Positions 3,516 through 55,470 of a stretch of DNA of 55,470 nucleotides are shown here, one piece after another (position 1 is the first letter of the stretch; the number at the start of each line of letters is the position of its first letter). The translations under genes were made by a program, and so were the position numbers. The notes beneath the pieces were generated by a model. That model saw nothing but the letters and a program-made list of their open reading frames with translations. It did no database searches and was not told the DNA's origin. Source of the DNA: a virus; the IMG/VR virus record IMGVR_UViG_3300045911_000113, positions 1 to 55,470 of that record. One strand, given 5' to 3'.

Positions 3516-3553
3516 GGTAATTCCTCGGTGGTTGGTCTTATGATTACAACTTA

Positions 3554-3582
3554 AAACTACTCAATAACAACGAAGAAGTCAA
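3554..3582 (-). promoter_or_regulatory. Sigma70-like promoter of the CobS-like gene
   Basis: TTGACT (3582-3577) and TAGTTT (3559-3554) on the minus strand are separated by 17 bp. It sits between the terminator at 3598-3624 and the GTG start at 3515, consistent with a new transcription unit. Confidence 0.5.
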
Positions 3583-3597
3583 TCCCCTATATGTAAC

Positions 3598-3624
3598 AAA
3601 AAAACCCGCTTTTAGGCGGGTTTT
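3598..3624 (-). terminator. Rho-independent terminator
   Basis: A 9-bp stem AAAACCCGC/GCGGGTTTT (3601-3609 with 3616-3624) encloses a 6-nt loop and is followed on the minus strand by a run of seven T. The stop codon of the 83-residue gene lies inside the loop. The structure could also work on the opposite strand. Confidence 0.88.
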
Positions 3625-3863
3625 GTTACAAATCGTTGAATTATATTATCTACTTGAATTTCTAATTGTTTTTGTTGAATTGGATCGTATACGCCGAAAC
3701 TTTCCCACGATGAAATCGTTTCATGTTCCATTCCCGGCGACCATTCTCGCGTTCCATCGGGTTTTACAACACACACAATCTTGCCATTTGATGCATATAA
3801 ATATGCACCGGTACGTTTCACATCCAATGTAGGCCACTCGGCGTGTTCATCATGCTCGTGCAT
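3612..3863 (-). CDS. Hypothetical 83-residue phage protein
   Basis: ATG at 3863, overlapping the end of the upstream gene by 14 bp, with GAG in the overlap as a weak ribosome binding site. The sequence is acidic at the N-terminus and includes WPTLDVKRTGAYLYASNG and REWSPGMEHETISSWE. No motif is recognised. Its stop lies inside the hairpin of the terminator, so it is the last gene of its transcription unit. Confidence 0.65.
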   Translation of the reverse strand: MHEHDEHAEWPTLDVKRTGAYLYASNGKIVCVVKPDGTREWSPGMEHETISSWESFGVYDPIQQKQLEIQVDNIIQRFVTKPA

Positions 3864-45830: not shown

Positions 45831-46388
45831 TTACTTTTGAAAGGTATGTTTGTAAACATCCATCACGGCTTGTAATCCGTTATCAGTGATGTCTCTTGTG
45901 CCTATGCCGGCAAAGTGTTTAGTTCTCAACTTCGGTATTCCTGTGAATATGGAGAACCTACCGTTGTGATGGTCATATTCATACCATGATTCTGTGGGCT
46001 GGTCGTAAAAGAATATCGGCTTTCCGTTATTTACGGCCATTTGAACGGCCCAACCTGTGCCACCATCAACGCGCGTGTATGTATCGTCGTAAAATTTACC
46101 AATGGCAAAGATAGTCTCTCCATTTTTCACTTGATACCAATTTCTACTGATTAAACACTTGGTATATCGTGGCGCGGATAGGAGATTTCGTTTGAATTGC
46201 ACATTCACATCTAATGCATGTGCCAATCCTTCATGTAATTCAGCATCTGATAAGATGACGGGATTTTTTCCATACTGTTTGTGACCAGAGAAAGAATAGG
46301 CGTATGTCACCACGCCGTATTCTTCTCCAGCAGTTTCCCATGCCATATCAGCGCCAGGACACCCGCCACTGTGACATACATAACCCAT
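45831..46388 (-). CDS. SLOG/DprA-like Rossmann protein
   Basis: 185 residues. The N-terminus HSGGCPGADMAWETAGEEYG is a glycine-rich nucleotide-binding loop like that of SLOG/LOG-type proteins; the sequence continues VVTYAYSFSGH, TIFAIGKFYDDT, VDGGTGWAVQMAV and KPIFFYDQ, giving a Rossmann order with a second GGTGW loop. SLOG domains bind nucleotide-derived ligands and occur in defence and anti-defence proteins. It sits between the nrdJ C-terminal gene and the chimeric remnant, so it may have arrived with the recombination that made that scar. Confidence 0.6.
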   Translation of the reverse strand: MGYVCHSGGCPGADMAWETAGEEYGVVTYAYSFSGHKQYGKNPVILSDAELHEGLAHALDVNVQFKRNLLSAPRYTKCLISRNWYQVKNGETIFAIGKFYDDTYTRVDGGTGWAVQMAVNNGKPIFFYDQPTESWYEYDHHNGRFSIFTGIPKLRTKHFAGIGTRDITDNGLQAVMDVYKHTFQK

Positions 46389-46389
46389 A

Positions 46390-47073
46390 TTAGACTATCT
46401 CACAAGCTCCACCGCTGCAAGCAACGGTTTGTTGTAGTTCAGTTTCATCTTCTGTTTCAATAACCTTGGTGAGATCAAGTGTATGTAGGTGTGCAAATAG
46501 TTCTTCATATCGTTCCTTGGTAATGTCTTGGAACGGCGCCTGGATATAAGTGTGGTCGTCGTGTGGTAATACACTCAATGCGGTGTAGTTCTCTCGATTC
46601 GCCCACATCCACTCAAATACATCCTGCCACTCATCCTTTTTAATAGATACTGTGGTGGATACGTTGTTAATGTTTGCACCCTTACGATGTCCTACCTTGA
46701 CCCATTCCTTCCACACCTTACCTACGCGCTCAAGGAGGTCAAGAGCAGATTCATTGCGGAGAATAGCACCGTCTGGCGCCTTTTGTGGTACACTGATTAC
46801 CGCAGTCTTGTGTGGAGCAAAGAAATCGTCTTCCAACAACTCTGGATGTGCTTGTTGGAGATATCCATACACAGCTTCATTCTTGCCAACGCGGATGGTA
46901 CGAACGTAGTAGTCGTTGTGCCATGCGTGAATACCCGAAGAACTGCCTACTACAAGTGAGGTGGTGTTATGCACGACCGCGCCGTTCTTTAGTTGATAGG
47001 TATGTGTTCCCGACACCTCAATATCTACAGTTATTTTTTTCTCGGGATTCTTTCTAATTGTTTTGATTCTCAT
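46390..47073 (-). CDS. nrdJ: NrdJ C-terminal fragment preceded by C-terminal split-intein half
   Basis: 227 residues, TGGAGAAAATAA before the ATG. Residues 1-36 are a C-intein ending GTHTYQLKNGAVVHN; residue 37 (Thr) is the +1 extein residue. The extein TTSLVVGSSSGIHAWHNDYY continues the class II ribonucleotide reductase barrel and ends with the redox cysteines VACSGGACEIV (C218, C223). It must be joined to the middle fragment at 47130-47924 by protein trans-splicing. The nearest upstream gene on the strand is that fragment, 56 bp away. Confidence 0.92.
   Translation of the reverse strand: MRIKTIRKNPEKKITVDIEVSGTHTYQLKNGAVVHNTTSLVVGSSSGIHAWHNDYYVRTIRVGKNEAVYGYLQQAHPELLEDDFFAPHKTAVISVPQKAPDGAILRNESALDLLERVGKVWKEWVKVGHRKGANINNVSTTVSIKKDEWQDVFEWMWANRENYTALSVLPHDDHTYIQAPFQDITKERYEELFAHLHTLDLTKVIETEDETELQQTVACSGGACEIV
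46462..46514. repeat. 53-bp direct repeat, copy 2
   Basis: Identical to 45703-45755. This copy is inside the functional nrdJ C-terminal gene, covering codons for YEELFAHLHTLDLTKV. Confidence 0.93.
46966..47073 (-). mobile_element. C-intein of NrdJ split intein 2
   Basis: 36 residues, MRIKTIRKNPEKKITVDIEV to AVVHN, with intein blocks F and G. The penultimate His and terminal Asn are present and the +1 residue is Thr. Pairs with the N-intein at 47133-47450; the split site is in the usual position. Confidence 0.9.
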
Positions 47074-47129
47074 TTATTTTCTCCAAAAGATATTGATGTG
47101 TTCCATCTTTGTTGGTAATATAATATTAC

Positions 47130-47924
47130 TCAGTAAGAAATTATTTCGTCGGTTTCCACCAACTCATCGGCACGAACCCAACCACGAGCAGTCAAGAATT
47201 TGTGATTTGGTGTTACCGATACTACCAACCCGTCTTCCATTTCAATATCCCAAACTTCAGATACACCATTGACATAAAGAGATATAATCTTTTGTTCTTG
47301 ATTGTTTTCATCCAAGACGGTAACATCTCTATCAAATGGAATAAACGTCTTTTCTTCAATTTGTGATGGATCAACACCAATCATATCAAACAAACTTTTC
47401 AATGTTACTGATCCGTTTGTTGTCTTCACTTCTGTTTCAGGCACCACGCAGCCTTCGGGCTTGACCGTAGTAGTACGAGCGGCTTTGTTGATACCCAACA
47501 TTTCAGCAACACGAGCATTTTCTTCCTTGACAATCTTTGCTGCTTCGGCAAGATTGAGATTCAACACTTCACCAGAAGCAATACCCGTCATAGATACACC
47601 GATCAATGCTTCCTTCTCAGTGGTCTTCTTCCAAATATCACGGAGATAGTGGAAATTCGTGTAAGTTGCCTGCAACGTACCAATAAACGAGGCAACACGA
47701 GCACGAAGGTTGAGGTCGTTTTGATCAACAATATCCGATGCATTAATTGTTGTCAAATTACAGAACTGATTGGGGCGAAGACTAATTTCTGCGCAATTGT
47801 GTACTAATAGTCCGTTTGCAAAGAAGTTATGATTTTTTCTTATGGTCAAGTCATAAACATCTTCATTTTCCCTGATTGTCTTTTTTACGATTCTAGATTT
47901 AACAATCTGTTTTGCTTCCACCAT
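47130..47924 (-). CDS. nrdJ: NrdJ middle fragment flanked by two split-intein halves
   Basis: 264 residues. Residues 1-43 form a C-intein ending KNHNFFANGLLVHN. The extein (44-158) begins CAEISLRPNQFCNLTT, whose first Cys is the predicted thiyl-radical cysteine of the reductase, and ends ARTTTVKPEG. Residues 159-264 form an N-intein starting CVVPETEVKT. The protein therefore needs two trans-splicing reactions, one at each end. The start overlaps the end of the upstream endonuclease gene by 40 bp. Confidence 0.93.
   Translation of the reverse strand: MVEAKQIVKSRIVKKTIRENEDVYDLTIRKNHNFFANGLLVHNCAEISLRPNQFCNLTTINASDIVDQNDLNLRARVASFIGTLQATYTNFHYLRDIWKKTTEKEALIGVSMTGIASGEVLNLNLAEAAKIVKEENARVAEMLGINKAARTTTVKPEGCVVPETEVKTTNGSVTLKSLFDMIGVDPSQIEEKTFIPFDRDVTVLDENNQEQKIISLYVNGVSEVWDIEMEDGLVVSVTPNHKFLTARGWVRADELVETDEIISY
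47133..47450 (-). mobile_element. N-intein of NrdJ split intein 2
   Basis: 106 residues from C159, CVVPETEVKTTNGSVTLKSL onward, with block B VTPNHKFLT and ending in ADELVETDEIISY, a normal end for a naturally split N-intein. Inserted after KPEG, before the TTS that helps bind substrate phosphate. Confidence 0.9.
47796..47924 (-). mobile_element. C-intein of NrdJ split intein 1
   Basis: 43 residues starting MVEAKQIVKSRIVKKTIREN and ending LLVHN, strongly like C-inteins of the known NrdJ/gp41 split intein group. +1 residue is Cys. Pairs with the N-intein at 48760-49110. Confidence 0.92.
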
Positions 47925-48694
47925 TTTAATTCCCCCAAGTATGTATTTCCATCCAAAAACGGAGTAATGTTATCTATTAAACAAAACTCAACGTTTTTTA
48001 AAGATGGGTCTTTTTTAAGTTCTTCAAACTTCCACACCCTATTTTTGAAATATCCCTTGACTTCTATTATCTTTACAAGTTTTCCGGCTTCATATATAAA
48101 AAAATCAGGTCTATATGATTCTGCCCCTAACATCCATTGTTGAGATTCTACATCCCAATCAAATTTATTTTTATCTAACCATTTGGCTAGAATATATTCA
48201 TATGTTGACCGAAGCCATACATATTTTTGTCTTGATTTGTTAAAGAAGTAACCTGTAACCCCACGTTCTGTGTTCTTATTCTTGGTTCGTCTGTTTCTCC
48301 AACCGCCAGATTTTATTGCATTTTCACTTCTAACTCGTTTTAGATTTTCTGTAACAACATTATATCCTTTACGAATTGGTATGTTTATATATTCTAGGAG
48401 CCTACGCATTTTTGTGTAGCTAATGTTTAGTTCTCTTGCCATTAACTTTAATCCAACTCCGTCATGTTCATACTTTTGGCGCACCGATGATACAAAATAA
48501 TTCCACTCATCTGCATAAACTTCTTGGAGTTTTTTTCTAATAAAGGTTTTCTTTACAAACCCTCTAGCTCCGTTTCCATACAATTTATACTGCTCTTTAA
48601 AAAATTCTCGGTATTCTGTTTGCCACTCGTTACGAATGTCACGATACCCATCCAACTCTATAAACTTACGATATAAGGTATTCAAGTCTAACAT
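47885..48694 (-). CDS. Free-standing PD-(D/E)XK putative homing endonuclease between split-intein halves
   Basis: 269 residues from ATG 48694; an upstream TTG frame runs through the hairpin and is unlikely. A helical N-terminal part (helix-turn-helix-like, ARELNISYTKMRRLLEYINI) is followed by a segment GVTGYFFNKSRQKYVWLRST, YEYILAKWLDKNKFDW and the nuclease core YRPDFFIYEAGKLVKIIEVKGYF (PD...ExK). The gene lies exactly between the N- and C-intein halves of NrdJ split intein 1, the place expected for the element that fractured the gene. The protein at 54723-55470 has the same layout. Confidence 0.78.
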   Translation of the reverse strand: MLDLNTLYRKFIELDGYRDIRNEWQTEYREFFKEQYKLYGNGARGFVKKTFIRKKLQEVYADEWNYFVSSVRQKYEHDGVGLKLMARELNISYTKMRRLLEYINIPIRKGYNVVTENLKRVRSENAIKSGGWRNRRTKNKNTERGVTGYFFNKSRQKYVWLRSTYEYILAKWLDKNKFDWDVESQQWMLGAESYRPDFFIYEAGKLVKIIEVKGYFKNRVWKFEELKKDPSLKNVEFCLIDNITPFLDGNTYLGELKWWKQNRLLNLES

Positions 48695-48698
48695 AGGG

Positions 48699-48744
48699 TT
48701 CCCCGCAATAGGTTCTACATATAAATAGTGTCTATTGTGGGGAA
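48699..48744 (-). promoter_or_regulatory. Hairpin with CTATTTATA motif over the endonuclease RBS
   Basis: Stem TTCCCCGCAATAG/CTATTGTGGGGAA (48699-48711 with 48732-48744), 13 bp with one G-U pair. The minus-strand 3' arm contains the GCGGGGAA ribosome binding site of ATG 48694. The loop holds ACACTATTTATATG, so transcription started there would leave the site free. Confidence 0.65.
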
Positions 48745-48756
48745 ACAACCCATATG

Positions 48757-50472
48757 TTATTTAATATTCACCAAAATATCTTCTTCGGTCAATTGAGCGG
48801 CCTCCACCCAACCACGATTTTCAGTAAATACCTTGTGGTCCGGAGTTAGCTTTAGAGTCTCACCAGTATCAAGGGTCAATTCAATAATTGATGTCTTTTC
48901 GCGGGTAAGAGCAGCATTATCCAACACATCCCACTCCAACTGCTTTAGCTCTGTATTATACGAAAGCACCATTGGTGGTAATGTAGTGGTTTCGTAGAGT
49001 TCTACGAGCTGTTTAAGTGGAATCTGATATACTCCGCCTTCTGCGACAACTTCACCGTCGGAGATGATATCGTGATCTCTGACTGTAATGAGAGCATCTC
49101 CGGTAATGCATGGGTTGAGTCCCCATTCCTTGTCATTCGTCATAAAGAAGCCAGGTTCACCAGAACCCGATGCTTCAATCTTCTTCCATAGATCATAGAA
49201 GGTTTCCTTATCAATCTTGTGACGAAGAATGGTGGCGCTATTATTAGCACGTTGTCTCTGTGGATTCAATTCCCAGAAATTACCAAACTTACAAGTCAAC
49301 ATTTCTTCATCATCAAGATCGAATAGACTGATCATTGCGGAACGACGAATACCACCAGCTAATACCGCATCAGCAATATAACAGTTGATGTCATGTACAT
49401 CAATTGGCTCTAGTTGTTCGCCGTCTTCCTTACGTTCAAAAATCTTCTTGATGTTGTGTAACGCATCATTGAGAGGTTCTGGTCCCGGTGCCTTACCGCC
49501 AGAAGTGATAAGCTTTGCACCTTTGGGACGTATATCACGAAAATCAAAATCAGGTATAGGCTTGCCTTCAAAATAGGCACGAACAAGTACCTTTACTGCG
49601 TCTGACCATCCTTCAATACTATCTCCTACAACAAATCGACGAGTCTTCTTATTCTTACGAATAGCTGGTAGCTGTTCAATGTGATGACGCTGAACTGAAT
49701 ATCCTACTCCCACACCAGATAACAACAAGAACATGAGTTCGGAAAATGATGCGGGGTGGTTCATTGGCAAAAATGAACAGTTCCCTGTAACTTCCCCCGT
49801 TGCCAATACAAAGCTGCGATCATCTTCAACTTCTAAACACCACACCGGTTCCTTTCCAGATGGTACGATACTCTTGACAACAAAGCTCATATTCGTTTCA
49901 GGAGTAGATTCTTCATAGATAAATTGATCAAAGATTACCGGTGCAGATGCTAACTTATCTCCAACTTTTAGTGAAGTAGTTTCTGTTCCGTCCTTAAGAA
50001 TCCACCGATGATTCGATGTGGCTCTGGTCACATGTGAATGTCGTCCCCGAATAATCGTAATATCATACAACTCATCAACACCGTAGTTTCGTACTGTGGC
50101 CTTCTTCCAATTACCTTTGTGGGTAAGAACGTATGTGGTATCACCATCTGTAAAATCATTAAAAGATTTTACACCATCTCTCGTAACGAAACGGGTATCG
50201 GCGCTTAGACAATTGTAAATTCTAGCAGGGTTTAACTCAATCGGCTTTCCAGCAAATTGTAACGAACGCATAGACGGCAAAACCTTACGTTCAAAAACTA
50301 ATTTGTAAGCTTCACGAATTTCCTGTTCAAGTGCAGGAAATTTCTTGATGTGCATATCCATATTACGTGTGACTACTTCATCCCATGTCTCACGACGTTG
50401 GAGTTCTGGAATGAACTTGGCATATTTCATATGCACCGTGAGATCTGACAAAATTTGGGTGCTAAGTTCCAT
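48757..50472 (-). CDS. nrdJ: NrdJ N-terminal fragment with a cis intein and a terminal N-intein
   Basis: 571 residues. Extein 1-87 ends NPARIYN; a complete intein (88-231) follows; the extein resumes CSFLPMNHPASFSELMFLLL, through VLAGGIRRSAMISLFDLDD, to WGLNP at 454; residues 455-571 are an N-intein. This is the N-terminal part of the B12-dependent class II ribonucleotide reductase. After cis splicing here and two trans-splicing steps with the fragments at 47130-47924 and 46390-47073, the mature enzyme would have about 616 residues (87+223+115+191). It reduces ribonucleoside di- or triphosphates to deoxy forms using adenosylcobalamin. Confidence 0.94.
   Translation of the reverse strand: MELSTQILSDLTVHMKYAKFIPELQRRETWDEVVTRNMDMHIKKFPALEQEIREAYKLVFERKVLPSMRSLQFAGKPIELNPARIYNCLSADTRFVTRDGVKSFNDFTDGDTTYVLTHKGNWKKATVRNYGVDELYDITIIRGRHSHVTRATSNHRWILKDGTETTSLKVGDKLASAPVIFDQFIYEESTPETNMSFVVKSIVPSGKEPVWCLEVEDDRSFVLATGEVTGNCSFLPMNHPASFSELMFLLLSGVGVGYSVQRHHIEQLPAIRKNKKTRRFVVGDSIEGWSDAVKVLVRAYFEGKPIPDFDFRDIRPKGAKLITSGGKAPGPEPLNDALHNIKKIFERKEDGEQLEPIDVHDINCYIADAVLAGGIRRSAMISLFDLDDEEMLTCKFGNFWELNPQRQRANNSATILRHKIDKETFYDLWKKIEASGSGEPGFFMTNDKEWGLNPCITGDALITVRDHDIISDGEVVAEGGVYQIPLKQLVELYETTTLPPMVLSYNTELKQLEWDVLDNAALTREKTSIIELTLDTGETLKLTPDHKVFTENRGWVEAAQLTEEDILVNIK
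48760..49110 (-). mobile_element. N-intein of NrdJ split intein 1
   Basis: 117 residues from C455 (CITGDALITVRDHD) with block B LTPDHKVFTENRGWV and end LTEEDILVNIK. Inserted between Pro and the radical Cys of the NPC motif. Confidence 0.92.
49780..50211 (-). mobile_element. Cis mini-intein in NrdJ (residues 88-231)
   Basis: 144 residues, CLSADTRFVTRDGVKSFNDF to FVLATGEVTGN, with block B RATSNHRWIL. The penultimate residue is Gly rather than His (TGN then +1 Cys), a known but less common variant. It sits before the cysteine of RIYNCSF, predicted to be one of the redox-active pair. Confidence 0.9.
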
Positions 50473-50514
50473 CTTTTACATCTCAAATCAAAAAGGTTGA
50501 ACATGGTAGGTAAA

Positions 50515-50564
50515 GAATAAGTAGTCCTTCAAAGCGCACAATCGCGTTTCTGTGAAAGACTACT
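50515..50564 (-). promoter_or_regulatory. Hairpin and CTACTTATTC motif upstream of nrdJ
   Basis: Arms AGTAGTCCTTC/GAAAGACTACT (50520-50530 with 50554-50564, one mismatch). The minus strand reads GGACTACTTATTC (50527-50515), at the end of the hairpin and about 45 nt before the nrdJ ATG. A terminator function for gp41 is also possible. Confidence 0.4.
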
Positions 50565-50578
50565 ATTGTTCAATTTAA

Positions 50579-52021
50579 TTATCCTAAATCAATATCATCT
50601 AATGTATCTTCTCTCAATGCTTTATTGGTGGACATGGGATCGAGTAGTCGTTTTCTTAACATGGCATTCACCTTGCCAGCGCCATTCTCCATCTGGTTCT
50701 TGACACGGAGACCATCTGGTGAATTTTCATCATATACTTCAATTTTGCCGTGACTTAAATCCATATATGCTGGAAACGTCATGCCGTCAGCCCCGAAACG
50801 ATTCTTGATAACGTGGAATCGTGCCGTGTTGCTCATCTTGTCAGCAAGTTTACGACTTACCGACGCAACGAAATCCGCCACGAAAATCTTTGAATACGCA
50901 CCGGCAATTTTATCGGCTTCTACAACATCATCCTGCAAAGCCGAGCGCTGACTTTGTGAGGCCGTCCATCCTGGAATCTTGAGTTCACCTAACATACCAC
51001 GAATATCTTCATAAATGAAGCCCAGTTCTTCGTGACGAGCATTTGACTTTTCCGTGGACCGCATAAGGTCGGCATAGTCAATGATGACCAAATCAGGCTT
51101 ATAACCCAATTGTGTCATACGATTGATGTGAGCCGACAAATGATTTACTGATGCGGTGCGAGTTGGAAAATATTTGATGATTAGTTCTCCGTCAATTTGA
51201 TCAATCGCAGCACGAACCCGTTCTTTATTCTTACAAATTTCTCTGCTTTCTATGCCGGTAAAGATGCTATCATATCGTAGACCAACATAATTTTCTGACA
51301 ACTCAAACGTATAATCTACGACGCGCTTACCTCGCCGCAATGCTTCAGCAGCAATAGCACGAAGCACCCACGACTTACCAATACCAGACGGCGCAATAAT
51401 ACAACCCAGTTCCCCTGGTCCAAGGCCACCATCAAGCAATTCATTGATACACGGCCATGGTGTCGCCACCGTATCACGTGCGATCTTCGACAATCGAACA
51501 TCAATCTCGTTGACCCAATCGTGGCCGAGATTACGTTCTTGTCCGGCACGCATGGCACGATCAATCATACTCTTGATTTCTTCGTATTTACCCTTCTGAA
51601 CAAACTCTGCGCCCCTCAAGATAGCATTCTTGATGGCCTGATTTTTACAGAAATCTAAGAACTCCTTCTTGTGATATGCAAGATCGGTAGCCTTGGTATT
51701 CTTGTAAATAGACTTGAGCTGTTCTACCACCGACACGCGAAGCAAGTCCGCTTCTTTGTTACCTTGAAGCTTATCGCTCTCCCGCTTGAATACGTCTGGT
51801 GTGGGAATATCTCGATATTGTGTATAGTGCTCAAGAATCTTGTTTACAATCCACTTATTCGGTTCACTCTCAAAGTAGTGAGGCACAACAATATCAAATG
51901 TCTGTTCAAGAAATGTTTTATCCGTGAGCATAGACGCAATGGCCTTACTCTGAAATGTGGAACCATATTTCTGTAAAGTGTCAAGATTGTCTTTATCAAG
52001 ATCTTGTTTTACATCCGTCAT
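50579..52021 (-). CDS. 41: Replicative DNA helicase gp41 (DnaB family)
   Basis: 480 residues, uninterrupted. Walker A is APSGIGKS (210-217); Walker B LVIIDYADLM (D315); RRGKRVVDYTFELSENYVGL and WTASQSQRSALQ fit the RecA-like core of T4 gp41. The N-terminal 180 residues form the helical oligomerisation part. It unwinds DNA at the fork with the primase. Split-intein versions of gp41 are known from environmental phages, but this copy carries none. Confidence 0.92.
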   Translation of the reverse strand: MTDVKQDLDKDNLDTLQKYGSTFQSKAIASMLTDKTFLEQTFDIVVPHYFESEPNKWIVNKILEHYTQYRDIPTPDVFKRESDKLQGNKEADLLRVSVVEQLKSIYKNTKATDLAYHKKEFLDFCKNQAIKNAILRGAEFVQKGKYEEIKSMIDRAMRAGQERNLGHDWVNEIDVRLSKIARDTVATPWPCINELLDGGLGPGELGCIIAPSGIGKSWVLRAIAAEALRRGKRVVDYTFELSENYVGLRYDSIFTGIESREICKNKERVRAAIDQIDGELIIKYFPTRTASVNHLSAHINRMTQLGYKPDLVIIDYADLMRSTEKSNARHEELGFIYEDIRGMLGELKIPGWTASQSQRSALQDDVVEADKIAGAYSKIFVADFVASVSRKLADKMSNTARFHVIKNRFGADGMTFPAYMDLSHGKIEVYDENSPDGLRVKNQMENGAGKVNAMLRKRLLDPMSTNKALREDTLDDIDLG

Positions 52022-52022
52022 A

Positions 52023-53093
52023 TTAAGATTTCTCGCTGTATCGCGTTAGTGGAACAAAGGTTGTAGTCAACCACTCGTCTAAGTTTGTAAACCCTCCTAG
52101 CAATCTATGCTTGACGAACAGTTGTGTCAAGTTCAACTTGTTTAGACTGTTTATAGGCGCGTCAAATTGCTCTAAAACCTTGATACGAGTATGACCGCTC
52201 ATATGTTGTTCGTCCAATCGCATGAGTGTCATATTACGTTCAATAATTTCTTTATTATCTAAAATGATCTGACACGCCACATTTTTCTTTTTAACTTGTT
52301 TCGCGGCTTCAATTTTTTCTTCGCACTGCGAATAGATGTGCGCCCACGGAATTTGTTTATCCGTGGCAAGCTCAGGAAAGTTTTTAATTAGAGTTGCCGG
52401 TCCTACACCTTTAACACCAGGAATGTTATCACTGCTATCACCATCAATCGTGCGAAAAATCATAAAATTTGATGGGTGAATGCCGTATTCTTCCACTACG
52501 GCATCTTCGGTATAGATTTTCTTTTTGGTGGGATTGTAGACACGAATTTTCGTATCTACAAGTTGTAAGAAATCTTTGTCGTTTGACATGATATAAGCAT
52601 CGCCGCCACGCTCGGATACAAGTTTTGCCAAATAGGCAAGCACATCATCGGCTTCTACGTTATCAACAGAAATCACTGTGAGTGGGAGAAACGTCATAGC
52701 CTCTACGAGCTGAATCAACTGACGTTTCTGATTTTCTAATTCAGCTTCTTTCGTGTCAAAATCATATGCACGATTGAGCTTCGTCATAGACTTGCGATTT
52801 TCTTTATATTCACTGAATATTTCTCGGCGTTTCTTACTGCCGCCACGACCATCGAATACTACCACACACCGTGACGGACGAATAATACGAATGGCTTGGC
52901 CGATGGAACGAAGAAATCCCGTGAATCCACCGATATGTTCTCCATTATCATTTAGCGTTGGGATAGCTGCAAAACAACGTATAAATACGTTGAGCTAAAG
53001 CCCATCAATTAATAGAACTTTACTGTCTCTATTAATGACGGGCGATTCCTCCATATTTTTTTGAAATGTTTTTAATTTCTCAGCTAAGTCCAT
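52023..53093 (-). pseudogene. 5'-3' exonuclease (T4 RNase H/FEN-like) interrupted by in-frame TAG
   Basis: ATG 53093 has TTGGAGA upstream. The frame encodes a helical leader, then KVLLIDGL followed by TAG at codon 33 (52997-52995), then LNVFIRCFAAIPTLNDNGEH, IGGFTGFL, CVVVFDGRGGSKKRREIFSE, VDNVEADDVLAYLAKL and GVKGVGPATLIKNF. All belong to one 5'-3' exonuclease in a single frame. Comparison with the usual IDGxNxFIR pattern suggests a 6-bp insertion (CTTTAG) created the stop. The reading frame after it is open for 324 codons. A start at GTG 52865 would lose the first catalytic Asp (D30). Either the gene is dead, a suppressor reads TAG, or the N-terminus acts separately. Confidence 0.75.
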
Positions 53094-53157
53094 GTTTGAT
53101 ATTCTCCAAAACTTCGGCATTTTTTGCTAATTGTATAATTCCACGTGATCCATAACA

Positions 53158-53200
53158 AACTCCCCACTACTAAACAGTTATTTATAAGTGGTGGGGAGTT
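53158..53200 (-). promoter_or_regulatory. 14-bp hairpin with TATAAATAA in the loop, upstream of the exonuclease
   Basis: Arms AACTCCCCACTACT/AGTGGTGGGGAGTT (53158-53171 with 53187-53200), one G-U pair. The minus strand reads CCACTTATAAATAACTG across the 5' arm and loop; this contains TATAAATA, the T4 late promoter core. It follows the stop of the gene at 53252 and precedes the exonuclease start by about 65 bp. The following TTTGTT could also allow termination. Confidence 0.55.
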
Positions 53201-53251
53201 GCGGTGAAAGATCGTATATAAAGATGATTCGTCATTAATGGTTCAGAATCA

Positions 53252-53485
53252 TCAATCTTCTGAAATTAGACACACCGCATCTTCCGAACCATCAATATTG
53301 ATATTTTCATCGTCAATCAAGTCGTCTTCACTGACAAAATCAGTTGCTCCTGACTCGTCTTCAATCCAATACCCCACAATGAGTTCATCAAGTGGTGAGA
53401 TTCGTGTTTGACTGGCGTTTGATAGAATTACTACTGCTTGAGGATTACATCCCGAAAGTATATCAATAAGTTCTTCAACTGTCAT
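53252..53485 (-). CDS. Small acidic protein, 77 residues
   Basis: TVEELIDILSGCNPQAVVIL near the start matches small phage and bacterial proteins with the T-V-x-E-L-I..L...P.a.V pattern; the rest is very acidic (SEDDLIDDENINIDGSEDA). ATG overlaps the uvsX stop by 4 bp, so it is coupled to uvsX. Function unknown. Confidence 0.65.
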   Translation of the reverse strand: MTVEELIDILSGCNPQAVVILSNASQTRISPLDELIVGYWIEDESGATDFVSEDDLIDDENINIDGSEDAVCLISED

Positions 53486-54726
53486 TCTTCAACTCCCACC
53501 GAAACTTCGCGGTCTTCCGAAGATAGTGATTCTGATGAATAGCTCATAATATGTGCGGCTGCCATCTTTTCATAAATTTCCGACTGGAGTTCTGGATTTG
53601 TCTCCAACCAATTACGCCACTCCTTGCTCTCCATTCTATGATCGGTGCCTTCATTATCTGTATATGTGATATATGCACCACCAGTGCTGACAATGTTTTT
53701 GGCCTTACAATAGTCTTTCCATGATGTCAGATCATCAATACCGCGATCAAAGTATACATCAAACTCAGCAGTGCGGAATGGTGGACCAAGGCGATTCTTA
53801 ATCACCGATGCCTTGACGTTCACACCAAGCACTTCCTTGTTCTTGTTAGTAATCTTCCCCGTAACAGACAAACGCAAACGAGTTGAGGCGTGGAATGCAA
53901 TTGCCTTACCACCCGAAGTCGTCCAAGGATCACTAAATGCCGGAGCATTCAATTTCTGGCGAAGCTGATTGGTGAATACTAGTGCAATCTTTTGTTTAGC
54001 AATGAGTTGAGTGACTTTACGCATCGCCTTGCTCAAGATAATAGCCTTGCCTGTTGCATATCCGTCTTTATTATAGTCGGATTCAAGTTCAGCGGCAGTT
54101 GGTACACCAGCAACAGAGTCCACTACAATAATGACCTTCTTATCCGCGTTACCGCCTTTACGTACCGTTTCAATGATCTTTTCGATCATTATGAAAATGT
54201 CTTCTAAAGTTTCTGGTTGAGCATATACCATCTTATTGAAGTCAAGACCAATGGCTTCATAAAATTCTGCGTTGACGGCATTTTCTGTGTCAATTAACAC
54301 AGATACACCACCTTCACGTTGAACATTTGCCATCATATGTGCTGCCAACAAACTCTTACCTGAATTGTGATTTAACATGCCATTACCAAAATACGCATGT
54401 TCATCATCATCCACAGTAATATCTACAATTGGATATTGACCGATAAATTCTACGGACACAACTTTAGAATATGTCCCATCATCACATAAAACCGAGTGTA
54501 ATCCAACTCGTAAATGTTGTGTTTCAACCCAACCAGCATTTGTGAAAAACTTATGTTCTTTTGATGTTTTTATGGAATAGGAATTTTCTAGAGTAACCAA
54601 AAATGTATCAAGTATTCCTTTCTCTATGTAGTTAGAAATTGGTGAATATGTACCATTTCTAGTTTTTACCTTAACCGTCTTTCCTTCGGATAACAGTTTT
54701 TTAACTTCTCGGATTTCAATTATCAT
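53482..54726 (-). CDS. uvsX: UvsX recombinase C-terminal fragment preceded by a long C-terminal split-intein part
   Basis: 414 residues. Residues 1-121 are intein sequence lacking only the first block: TSKEHKFFTNAGWVE corresponds to block B and DEHAYFGNGMLNHN is the C-terminal end. The extein (122-414) starts SGKSLLAAHMMANVQ, that is the last part of Walker A, and continues with VSVLIDTENAVNAEF, VIIVVDSVAGVPTAAEL and IALVFTNQLRQKLNAPAF, all RecA/UvsX motifs. The N-terminal UvsX part and a short N-intein must lie beyond the right edge. UvsX forms filaments on single-stranded DNA for recombination-dependent replication. ATG overlaps the stop of the upstream endonuclease gene by 4 bp. Confidence 0.92.
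   Translation of the reverse strand: MIIEIREVKKLLSEGKTVKVKTRNGTYSPISNYIEKGILDTFLVTLENSYSIKTSKEHKFFTNAGWVETQHLRVGLHSVLCDDGTYSKVVSVEFIGQYPIVDITVDDDEHAYFGNGMLNHNSGKSLLAAHMMANVQREGGVSVLIDTENAVNAEFYEAIGLDFNKMVYAQPETLEDIFIMIEKIIETVRKGGNADKKVIIVVDSVAGVPTAAELESDYNKDGYATGKAIILSKAMRKVTQLIAKQKIALVFTNQLRQKLNAPAFSDPWTTSGGKAIAFHASTRLRLSVTGKITNKNKEVLGVNVKASVIKNRLGPPFRTAEFDVYFDRGIDDLTSWKDYCKAKNIVSTGGAYITYTDNEGTDHRMESKEWRNWLETNPELQSEIYEKMAAAHIMSYSSESLSSEDREVSVGVEE
54364..54726 (-). mobile_element. Atypically split UvsX intein, long C-terminal part (121 residues)
   Basis: Starts MIIEIREVKKLLSEGKTVKV, which corresponds to intein sequence after about the first 25-30 residues, and includes blocks B, F and G. The last residues are NHN with +1 Ser122. 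Only a short N-intein (block A) is missing, so this belongs to the split-near-N-terminus class known from TerL and UvsX inteins in environmental data. Confidence 0.88.
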
Positions 54727-55470
54727 ATGTTTTTTATTAGTCGAGTGTAATTTTTTTCACTGATTGCTAACTTATTCTGAGATATTAATTCATCGATCCA
54801 CTGAATAGTTAGTATTGGTAAATTGTATGTATGTTCTGTTATGAAGTCTGCGAAAAGATTTCGTTCACGACAGTAATTTTGCAATGCAATAAATTTTGTT
54901 TGTACTTCTTCATTAGAAGTTAATTTAGATGGCTTTATTTCATATATTGTATTGTCAATCACTATATCAGGACAATAGGTTCTATCTGCTTCTTTATATG
55001 AATATGGTATTCTATGTGTAGATAATACAAACCGAATATTATTTAAATCTAAATACAAATATACTCGTAACTCTAACATACTTCTAAAATGTACTTTATG
55101 ACCGTTAATAAGTATCCACCCAGAGATTCCACTTCCCGCCGACAATGCTGGACTGCGGCCGTACATAGAATTTAAATTTCCCGTTTGTGGATTTTCGTTT
55201 GGTACTCCTATTAACTTACAAAGTTGATAATATTTTCTTTCACCATATCCAAATACATTTTGTAATTCTTTACGAATTTGCCATTTGTATTTACCGGCGT
55301 CAATTTGTTCTTTAAACCAAGTTTGGATATCGGAAGACAGTGGTTTTAGTTCAACGGATTTTAATACATCGGAAGATTTTTTACCATTAGTCTTTGCTAT
55401 ATGTGATCTTTTAATTTTCCAGTTGTAAGAAACTTTATCATACAAATTATAAAATATTAGATATGATTTT
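54723..55470 (-). CDS. Free-standing PD-(D/E)XK putative homing endonuclease (5' end beyond window)
   Basis: At least 248 residues; no ATG is found before the edge and the frame stays open, so the true start is outside. A helical N-terminal region (WQIRKELQNVFGYGERKYYQ) precedes SGISGWILINGHKVHFRSML, ELRVYLYLDLNNIRF, and the core YCPDIVIDNTIYEIKPSKL (PD...ExK). It has the same order of elements as the endonuclease between the NrdJ intein halves. It lies between the UvsX C-terminal gene and the expected N-terminal gene, again at the break. Confidence 0.75.
   Translation of the reverse strand, partial: KSYLIFYNLYDKVSYNWKIKRSHIAKTNGKKSSDVLKSVELKPLSSDIQTWFKEQIDAGKYKWQIRKELQNVFGYGERKYYQLCKLIGVPNENPQTGNLNSMYGRSPALSAGSGISGWILINGHKVHFRSMLELRVYLYLDLNNIRFVLSTHRIPYSYKEADRTYCPDIVIDNTIYEIKPSKLTSNEEVQTKFIALQNYCRERNLFADFITEHTYNLPILTIQWIDELISQNKLAISEKNYTRLIKNI

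Follow-up and report, generated by a model that had tools for sequence, protein, structure and literature searches.

At its right-hand end and on the minus strand, the window (the whole analysed stretch, 55,470 nucleotides of the IMG/VR virus record IMGVR_UViG_3300045911_000113) carries a gene which begins as the C-terminal part of an intein and continues as the recombinase UvsX. Its open reading frame (ORF) encodes 414 amino acids (aa). Residues 1-121 form the C-intein, ending in MLNHN, and from residue 122 on the product reads as UvsX, from SGKSLLAAHMM to the C-terminus (Table 1). Block A is absent from the C-intein, and blocks B, F and G are present. The gene product matched Pfam RecA (2.9e-44, residues 121-331), Intein_splicing (2e-6) and PT-HINT (1e-5), NCBIfam RecA (4.3e-54) and the PHROG family of UvsX-like recombinases (3e-57). 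The gene has an ATG start of its own, overlapping the stop codon of an endonuclease gene that runs off the contig (Pfam Phage_endo_I 9e-6, under the curated cut-off; PHROG endonuclease 1.6e-9). The 121 intein residues without block A, the resumption of UvsX at SGKS and the 4-bp overlap were thus all seen as the first-pass annotation had described them. Comparison with other phage contigs confirmed that the apparent interruption of UvsX is real and not due to chance, because relatives of the C-intein occupy the same UvsX site there and the catalytic residues are conserved in all of them.

The missing N-terminal part was sought by scanning IMG/VR with the window C-intein, which recovered contig L002. 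Over 4535 b its DNA shares 99.3% identity with the window, and the C-part protein that it encodes is identical. Upstream of the C-part, it contains a gene for 91 aa (3536-3811) consisting of 78 aa of the UvsX N-terminus, an N-intein and a stop codon, the end reading TGLEG/CVTEDTLIDVEIE-stop (slashes mark intein junctions). For this reason, the most likely length of the N-intein is 13 aa and not the 25-30 aa that had been predicted. Given that L002 is nearly identical to the window, the N-part of the window is presumably the same. The exact N-junction DNA was matched in the L002 contig only, and the exact DNA of the window endonuclease had no match in other viral contigs. In L002 the endonuclease gene is deleted save for its C-terminal end, and the window retains far more of it. 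Judging by an alignment to the L062 endonuclease, which is complete, we expect about 110 further endonuclease residues and a short spacer beyond position 55470 before the N-part is reached, rather than an N-part directly at that point, as first proposed.

Altogether, 11 split loci were found at this Walker A site. All 11 combine a short N-intein, of 13 aa in eight loci and 14 aa in three, with a long C-intein of about 120 aa. Before the junction, the N-part ends in GLEG in every locus but L070, which has GLEA; the upstream UvsX fragment expected to end in G-(P/E)-x-(G/S) followed by a short N-intein is therefore present in the relatives, with only its length misjudged. These relatives also support the earlier proposal that an atypically split intein breaks UvsX within Walker A, and the placing of an endonuclease between the halves was likewise borne out. 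A whole, free-standing endonuclease gene separates the halves in six loci (L062, L064, L066, L067, L070 and L071), its 3' part is seen in the window, and only a C-terminal remnant is left in five (L002, L003, L061, L081 and L083; best E 2e-4 to 3e-27). In three further lineages (L060, L073 and L074/L075) the intein is unbroken, and comparison with these contiguous homologues identifies the N-tail and the C-part as the two halves of one intein. A contiguous intein-UvsX frame, which had been named as the finding that would speak against a split, thus exists in these lineages but is absent from the near-identical L002. Finally, the site is empty, reading GLEGSGKS, in 54 loci, including L005 and L059. 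A pattern scan of bacterial and archaeal genomes gave no relative.

The split position is constant across the 11 diverged loci. Cys1 is found in all 11 split N-parts and in the three contiguous lineages, and is not visible in the window itself. H58, H120 and N121 are invariant in the family, the +1 residue is Ser or Thr, and block B has the form S-x-x-H instead of T-x-x-H. Codon differences within the N-intein fall mostly at third positions (413/679; permutation p ~0.0005, not corrected for relatedness), and the stop codons of the N-parts vary among TAA, TAG and TGA.

A structure was predicted for L060, a contiguous homologue, using the remaining family rows as alignment (mean predicted local distance difference test score, pLDDT, 74.7). 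The model has an intein fold: its best Foldseek match is VidaL (E 5e-10), and the Z scores reach 14.8 for NpuDnaB and 14.3 for VidaL. Cys1 is residue 28 of the model, and the split site maps to the turn that links strands 34-38 and 42-46. Atypical splits are known at two sites, S1 after strand beta2 (VidaL, PolB16) and S2 after helix alpha1 (PMC13014065), and the modelled position is consistent with S1. The residues at the N- and C-junctions together with the modelled fold point to a class 1 (HINT fold) intein.

We consider it very likely (probability about 0.9) that the window carries a naturally and atypically split class 1 mini-intein (about 13 + 121 aa) in Walker A of phage UvsX at GLEG/SGKS, that is, a fractured gene whose product is restored by protein trans-splicing. 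In such a case, the UvsX N-half (78 aa in L002) would be translated with its 13-aa N-intein tail, the mobile endonuclease would follow, and then the C-half from a gene starting with the 121-aa C-intein. When the two products meet, the short tail would supply the first strands that complete the C-intein fold. Class 1 trans-splicing by Cys1, the two His residues (block B and penultimate), Asn121 and Ser+1 would then join GLEG to SGKS, and the resulting UvsX would be continuous, its P-loop intact. What the sequences themselves show is the order of the genes, a split position that does not vary, conservation of the catalytic residues, the existence of empty sites, and loci that have lost the endonuclease but kept the split. 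Several points weigh on the other side. The window's own N-part lies beyond the end of its linear record (55470 b), and the match of the L002 upstream half to that of the window can only be assumed, since L002 has undergone deletion around the endonuclease. Furthermore, a natural N-intein of 13 aa is shorter than any characterised one in the literature examined, and both trans-splicing activity and homing are inferred.

The gene arrangement could also be read as an RNA intron (group I or II) bearing the endonuclease, with RNA splicing yielding a contiguous intein-UvsX gene. Phage endonuclease genes are indeed often located inside group I introns. However, no Rfam match was obtained in seven related loci at gathering scores, nor in window positions 46000-55470 at E up to 1, the halves are only about 100 nt or less apart in L003 and L083, and the C-part has its own ATG overlapping the endonuclease stop. 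An RNA intron, which we consider very improbable, was rejected on account of the negative Rfam searches and the L003/L083 gaps, too short to hold one. Slightly less improbable, but still unlikely, is that the halves are decaying fragments, with uvsX dead or its work done by another recombinase. Endonuclease remnants show that decay occurs at these loci, but across the 11 diverged loci with a split the UvsX frames are open and all intein catalytic residues are kept, the position of the split does not vary, and the N-intein has changed mainly at third codon positions.

We attach next to no weight to production of both halves as one protein by stop-codon readthrough, frameshifting or ribosome bypassing. 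The halves happen to share a frame in L002 (3536 and 4001), but they do not in L003, six loci have a complete endonuclease gene of about 1.1 kb in between, and the N-part stop codons differ, which makes a shared readthrough signal unlikely. An assembly artefact is just as hard to credit: each record is a contig from a metagenome, and that of the window stops inside the endonuclease, but the same break position, with a whole or remnant endonuclease between the halves, recurs in 11 contigs of diverged sequence.

As for the mobility of the split intein, the intein and its host gene have different closest relatives, and empty sites exist. The window UvsX is nearest to the empty-site L005 and L059 (72-73% identity), and its intein to L064 (65%), though L064 UvsX is only 46% identical. 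In L070, UvsX is 26-33% identical to the others and the intein about 50%. These differing nearest relatives of UvsX and intein, in the window and in L070, suggest that the intein was acquired horizontally. The intein tree is weakly supported and does not tell whether the split or the contiguous state is ancestral. A distant relative of the UvsX intein, 34% identical, is present in the terminase gene of Vibrio phage Va1.

The endonuclease, lying between intein blocks A and B, probably drove the spread of the intein by homing. The family conserves an E..PD..ExK core and an NPQTGxLNPMYGKSP motif; its Pfam and fold matches are all weak (best fold TnsA, E 4e-3; Pfam Phage_endo_I and TnsA-like, ~1e-5). 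Searching viral contigs for the endonuclease by short patterns gave no confirmed hit, and its relatives were found later via the intein. The endonuclease start region folds as a hairpin in five of the six loci, L062 being the exception (z -1.5 to -3.1), and is reminiscent of the hairpins by which translation of homing endonucleases is held back in T4 (PMC2988022). Located 9-17 nt past the N-part stop in L062, L064, L066, L067, L071 and L003 is TATTTATA or a form with one mismatch; read on the opposite strand it is TATAAATA, the late-promoter word of T4, and it may be part of the hairpin. Downstream of uvsX, at window positions 53150-53200 (minus strand), an inverted repeat ctccccaccact ... agtagtggggag around TATAAATA forms a terminator-like hairpin with a late-promoter-like loop.

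Further inteins were observed nearby. A second split intein with a short N-part is located in the same UvsX at L060:4733-6420 and L062:4736-6425; its N-part, GDK[WY]/CVDPFTTKIKIRYKV-stop (15 aa), is followed by another ORF and then by a C-part ending NHN/T[TV]SGGKA. The L062 UvsX is thereby split into three genes. In L003 (7492-8292), the ORF of a DnaB/gp41-type helicase ends as an intein N-part inside Walker A (GTGK/CVGSNTKIEIQYTEIG...). The window ribonucleotide reductase consists of three gene pieces (Table 1) and would need two trans-splicing events and one cis event; the second insertion is absent from the relative L005.

Table 1. Features of the window and of related loci (positions refer to the window unless a locus is given)
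Feature	Position or loci	Strand	Basis
C-part gene, C-intein and UvsX C-terminal part, 414 aa	53482..54726	-	Pfam, NCBIfam, PHROG matches
C-intein, 121 aa, blocks B/F/G, ends NHN	54364..54726	-	Pfam Intein_splicing/PT-HINT; alignment with contiguous L060, L073, L074
Block B His, residue 58, S-x-x-H, invariant in intein family	54553..54555	-	alignment
Putative C-terminal splice junction H120-N121 / S+1	54361..54369	-	alignment; empty sites GLEG/SGKS in L005, L059
UvsX C-extein, Walker A SGKS to end	53485..54363	-	Pfam RecA 2.9e-44; 72-73% identity to L005/L059
ATGA overlap, endonuclease stop / C-part start, 4 bp	54723..54726	-	sequence
Endonuclease gene 3' part, PD-(D/E)XK type, conserved E..PD..ExK and NPQTGxLNxMYGxSP motif	54723..55469, open at contig end	-	Pfam, PHROG, alignment with relatives
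Ribonucleotide reductase, three gene pieces	46390-50472	-
Piece 1: one contiguous mini-intein and N-part of second intein	48757-50472	-
Endonuclease-like gene within the region	47885-48748	-
Piece 2: C-part ending LLVHN/CAEIS, then third-intein N-part starting KPEG/CVVPETEV	47130-47924	-
Piece 3: C-part ending VVHN/TTSLVVG	46390-47073	-
Endonuclease-start hairpins	L064:3200-3245, L066:3357-3430, L067:1754-1825, L070:3344-3425, L071:3349-3410
13-aa N-intein	L002, L003, L062, L066, L067, L070, L081, L083
14-aa N-intein	L061, L064, L071

In the fractured genes reported by Dassa et al. in 2009, a split intein reportedly interrupts an enzyme gene, the halves lie on either side of a separate endonuclease gene of a Vsr-like family, and the N-part is usually roughly 100 aa. 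These share with the UvsX loci a split intein and an endonuclease gene between the halves, but the N-part is far shorter here and the endonuclease weakly matches models of TnsA and T7 endonuclease I. Atypically split inteins of UvsX may also appear already in the VidaL literature or patents. VidaL (PDB 6vgv) itself is alike in its class 1 type, very short N-part and S1 split, was the top Foldseek match (E 5e-10) and was matched by phmmer (E 1.8e-7); its solved chain also runs on into SGK. It differs in having only about 22-23% identity and an N-intein of 16 aa, compared to 13-14 aa here. PolB16 OarG, another natural atypical split near the N-terminus, differs in its Ser1/Ser+1, PolB-type polymerase host and C-intein of 168 aa, as opposed to Cys1, Ser/Thr+1 and UvsX. 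AceL-TerL and GOS-TerL are likewise inteins with short N-parts in phage-type genes, but they are split later, at S2 after helix alpha1 (PMC13014065).

Natural inteins with short N-parts and fractured genes are thus already known, and the 13-14 aa N-parts lie under the stated range of 15-37 aa (PMC13014065). In the literature examined, the shortest characterised natural N-intein is that of PolB16 OarG (15 aa; PMC10189870, 2023), VidaL has 16 aa and is atypically split, and an 11-aa N-part exists in M86, an artificially split intein (PMC13014065, 2026). In our judgement, it is fairly likely that these UvsX inteins form a naturally split family of phages whose 13-14 aa N-inteins are the shortest natural ones, with empty, contiguous, fractured and endonuclease-decayed states in one sequence set and, in L062, a UvsX divided into three genes by two inteins, one with a 13-aa and one with a 15-aa N-part.

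At 13 aa, a natural N-intein is short enough to be made as a synthetic peptide by routine means, and for labelling proteins it would serve as a very small tag. With empty, contiguous, fractured and endonuclease-free loci all present at the same site, the set offers a direct view of intein splitting, including the persistence of the split after endonuclease decay. That five loci keep the split after such decay suggests that phages with endonuclease remnants now depend on trans-splicing. Since homing in T4 depends on a UvsX-type recombinase (PMC2988022), the recombinase needed for homing would, if our interpretation is true, itself need protein splicing.
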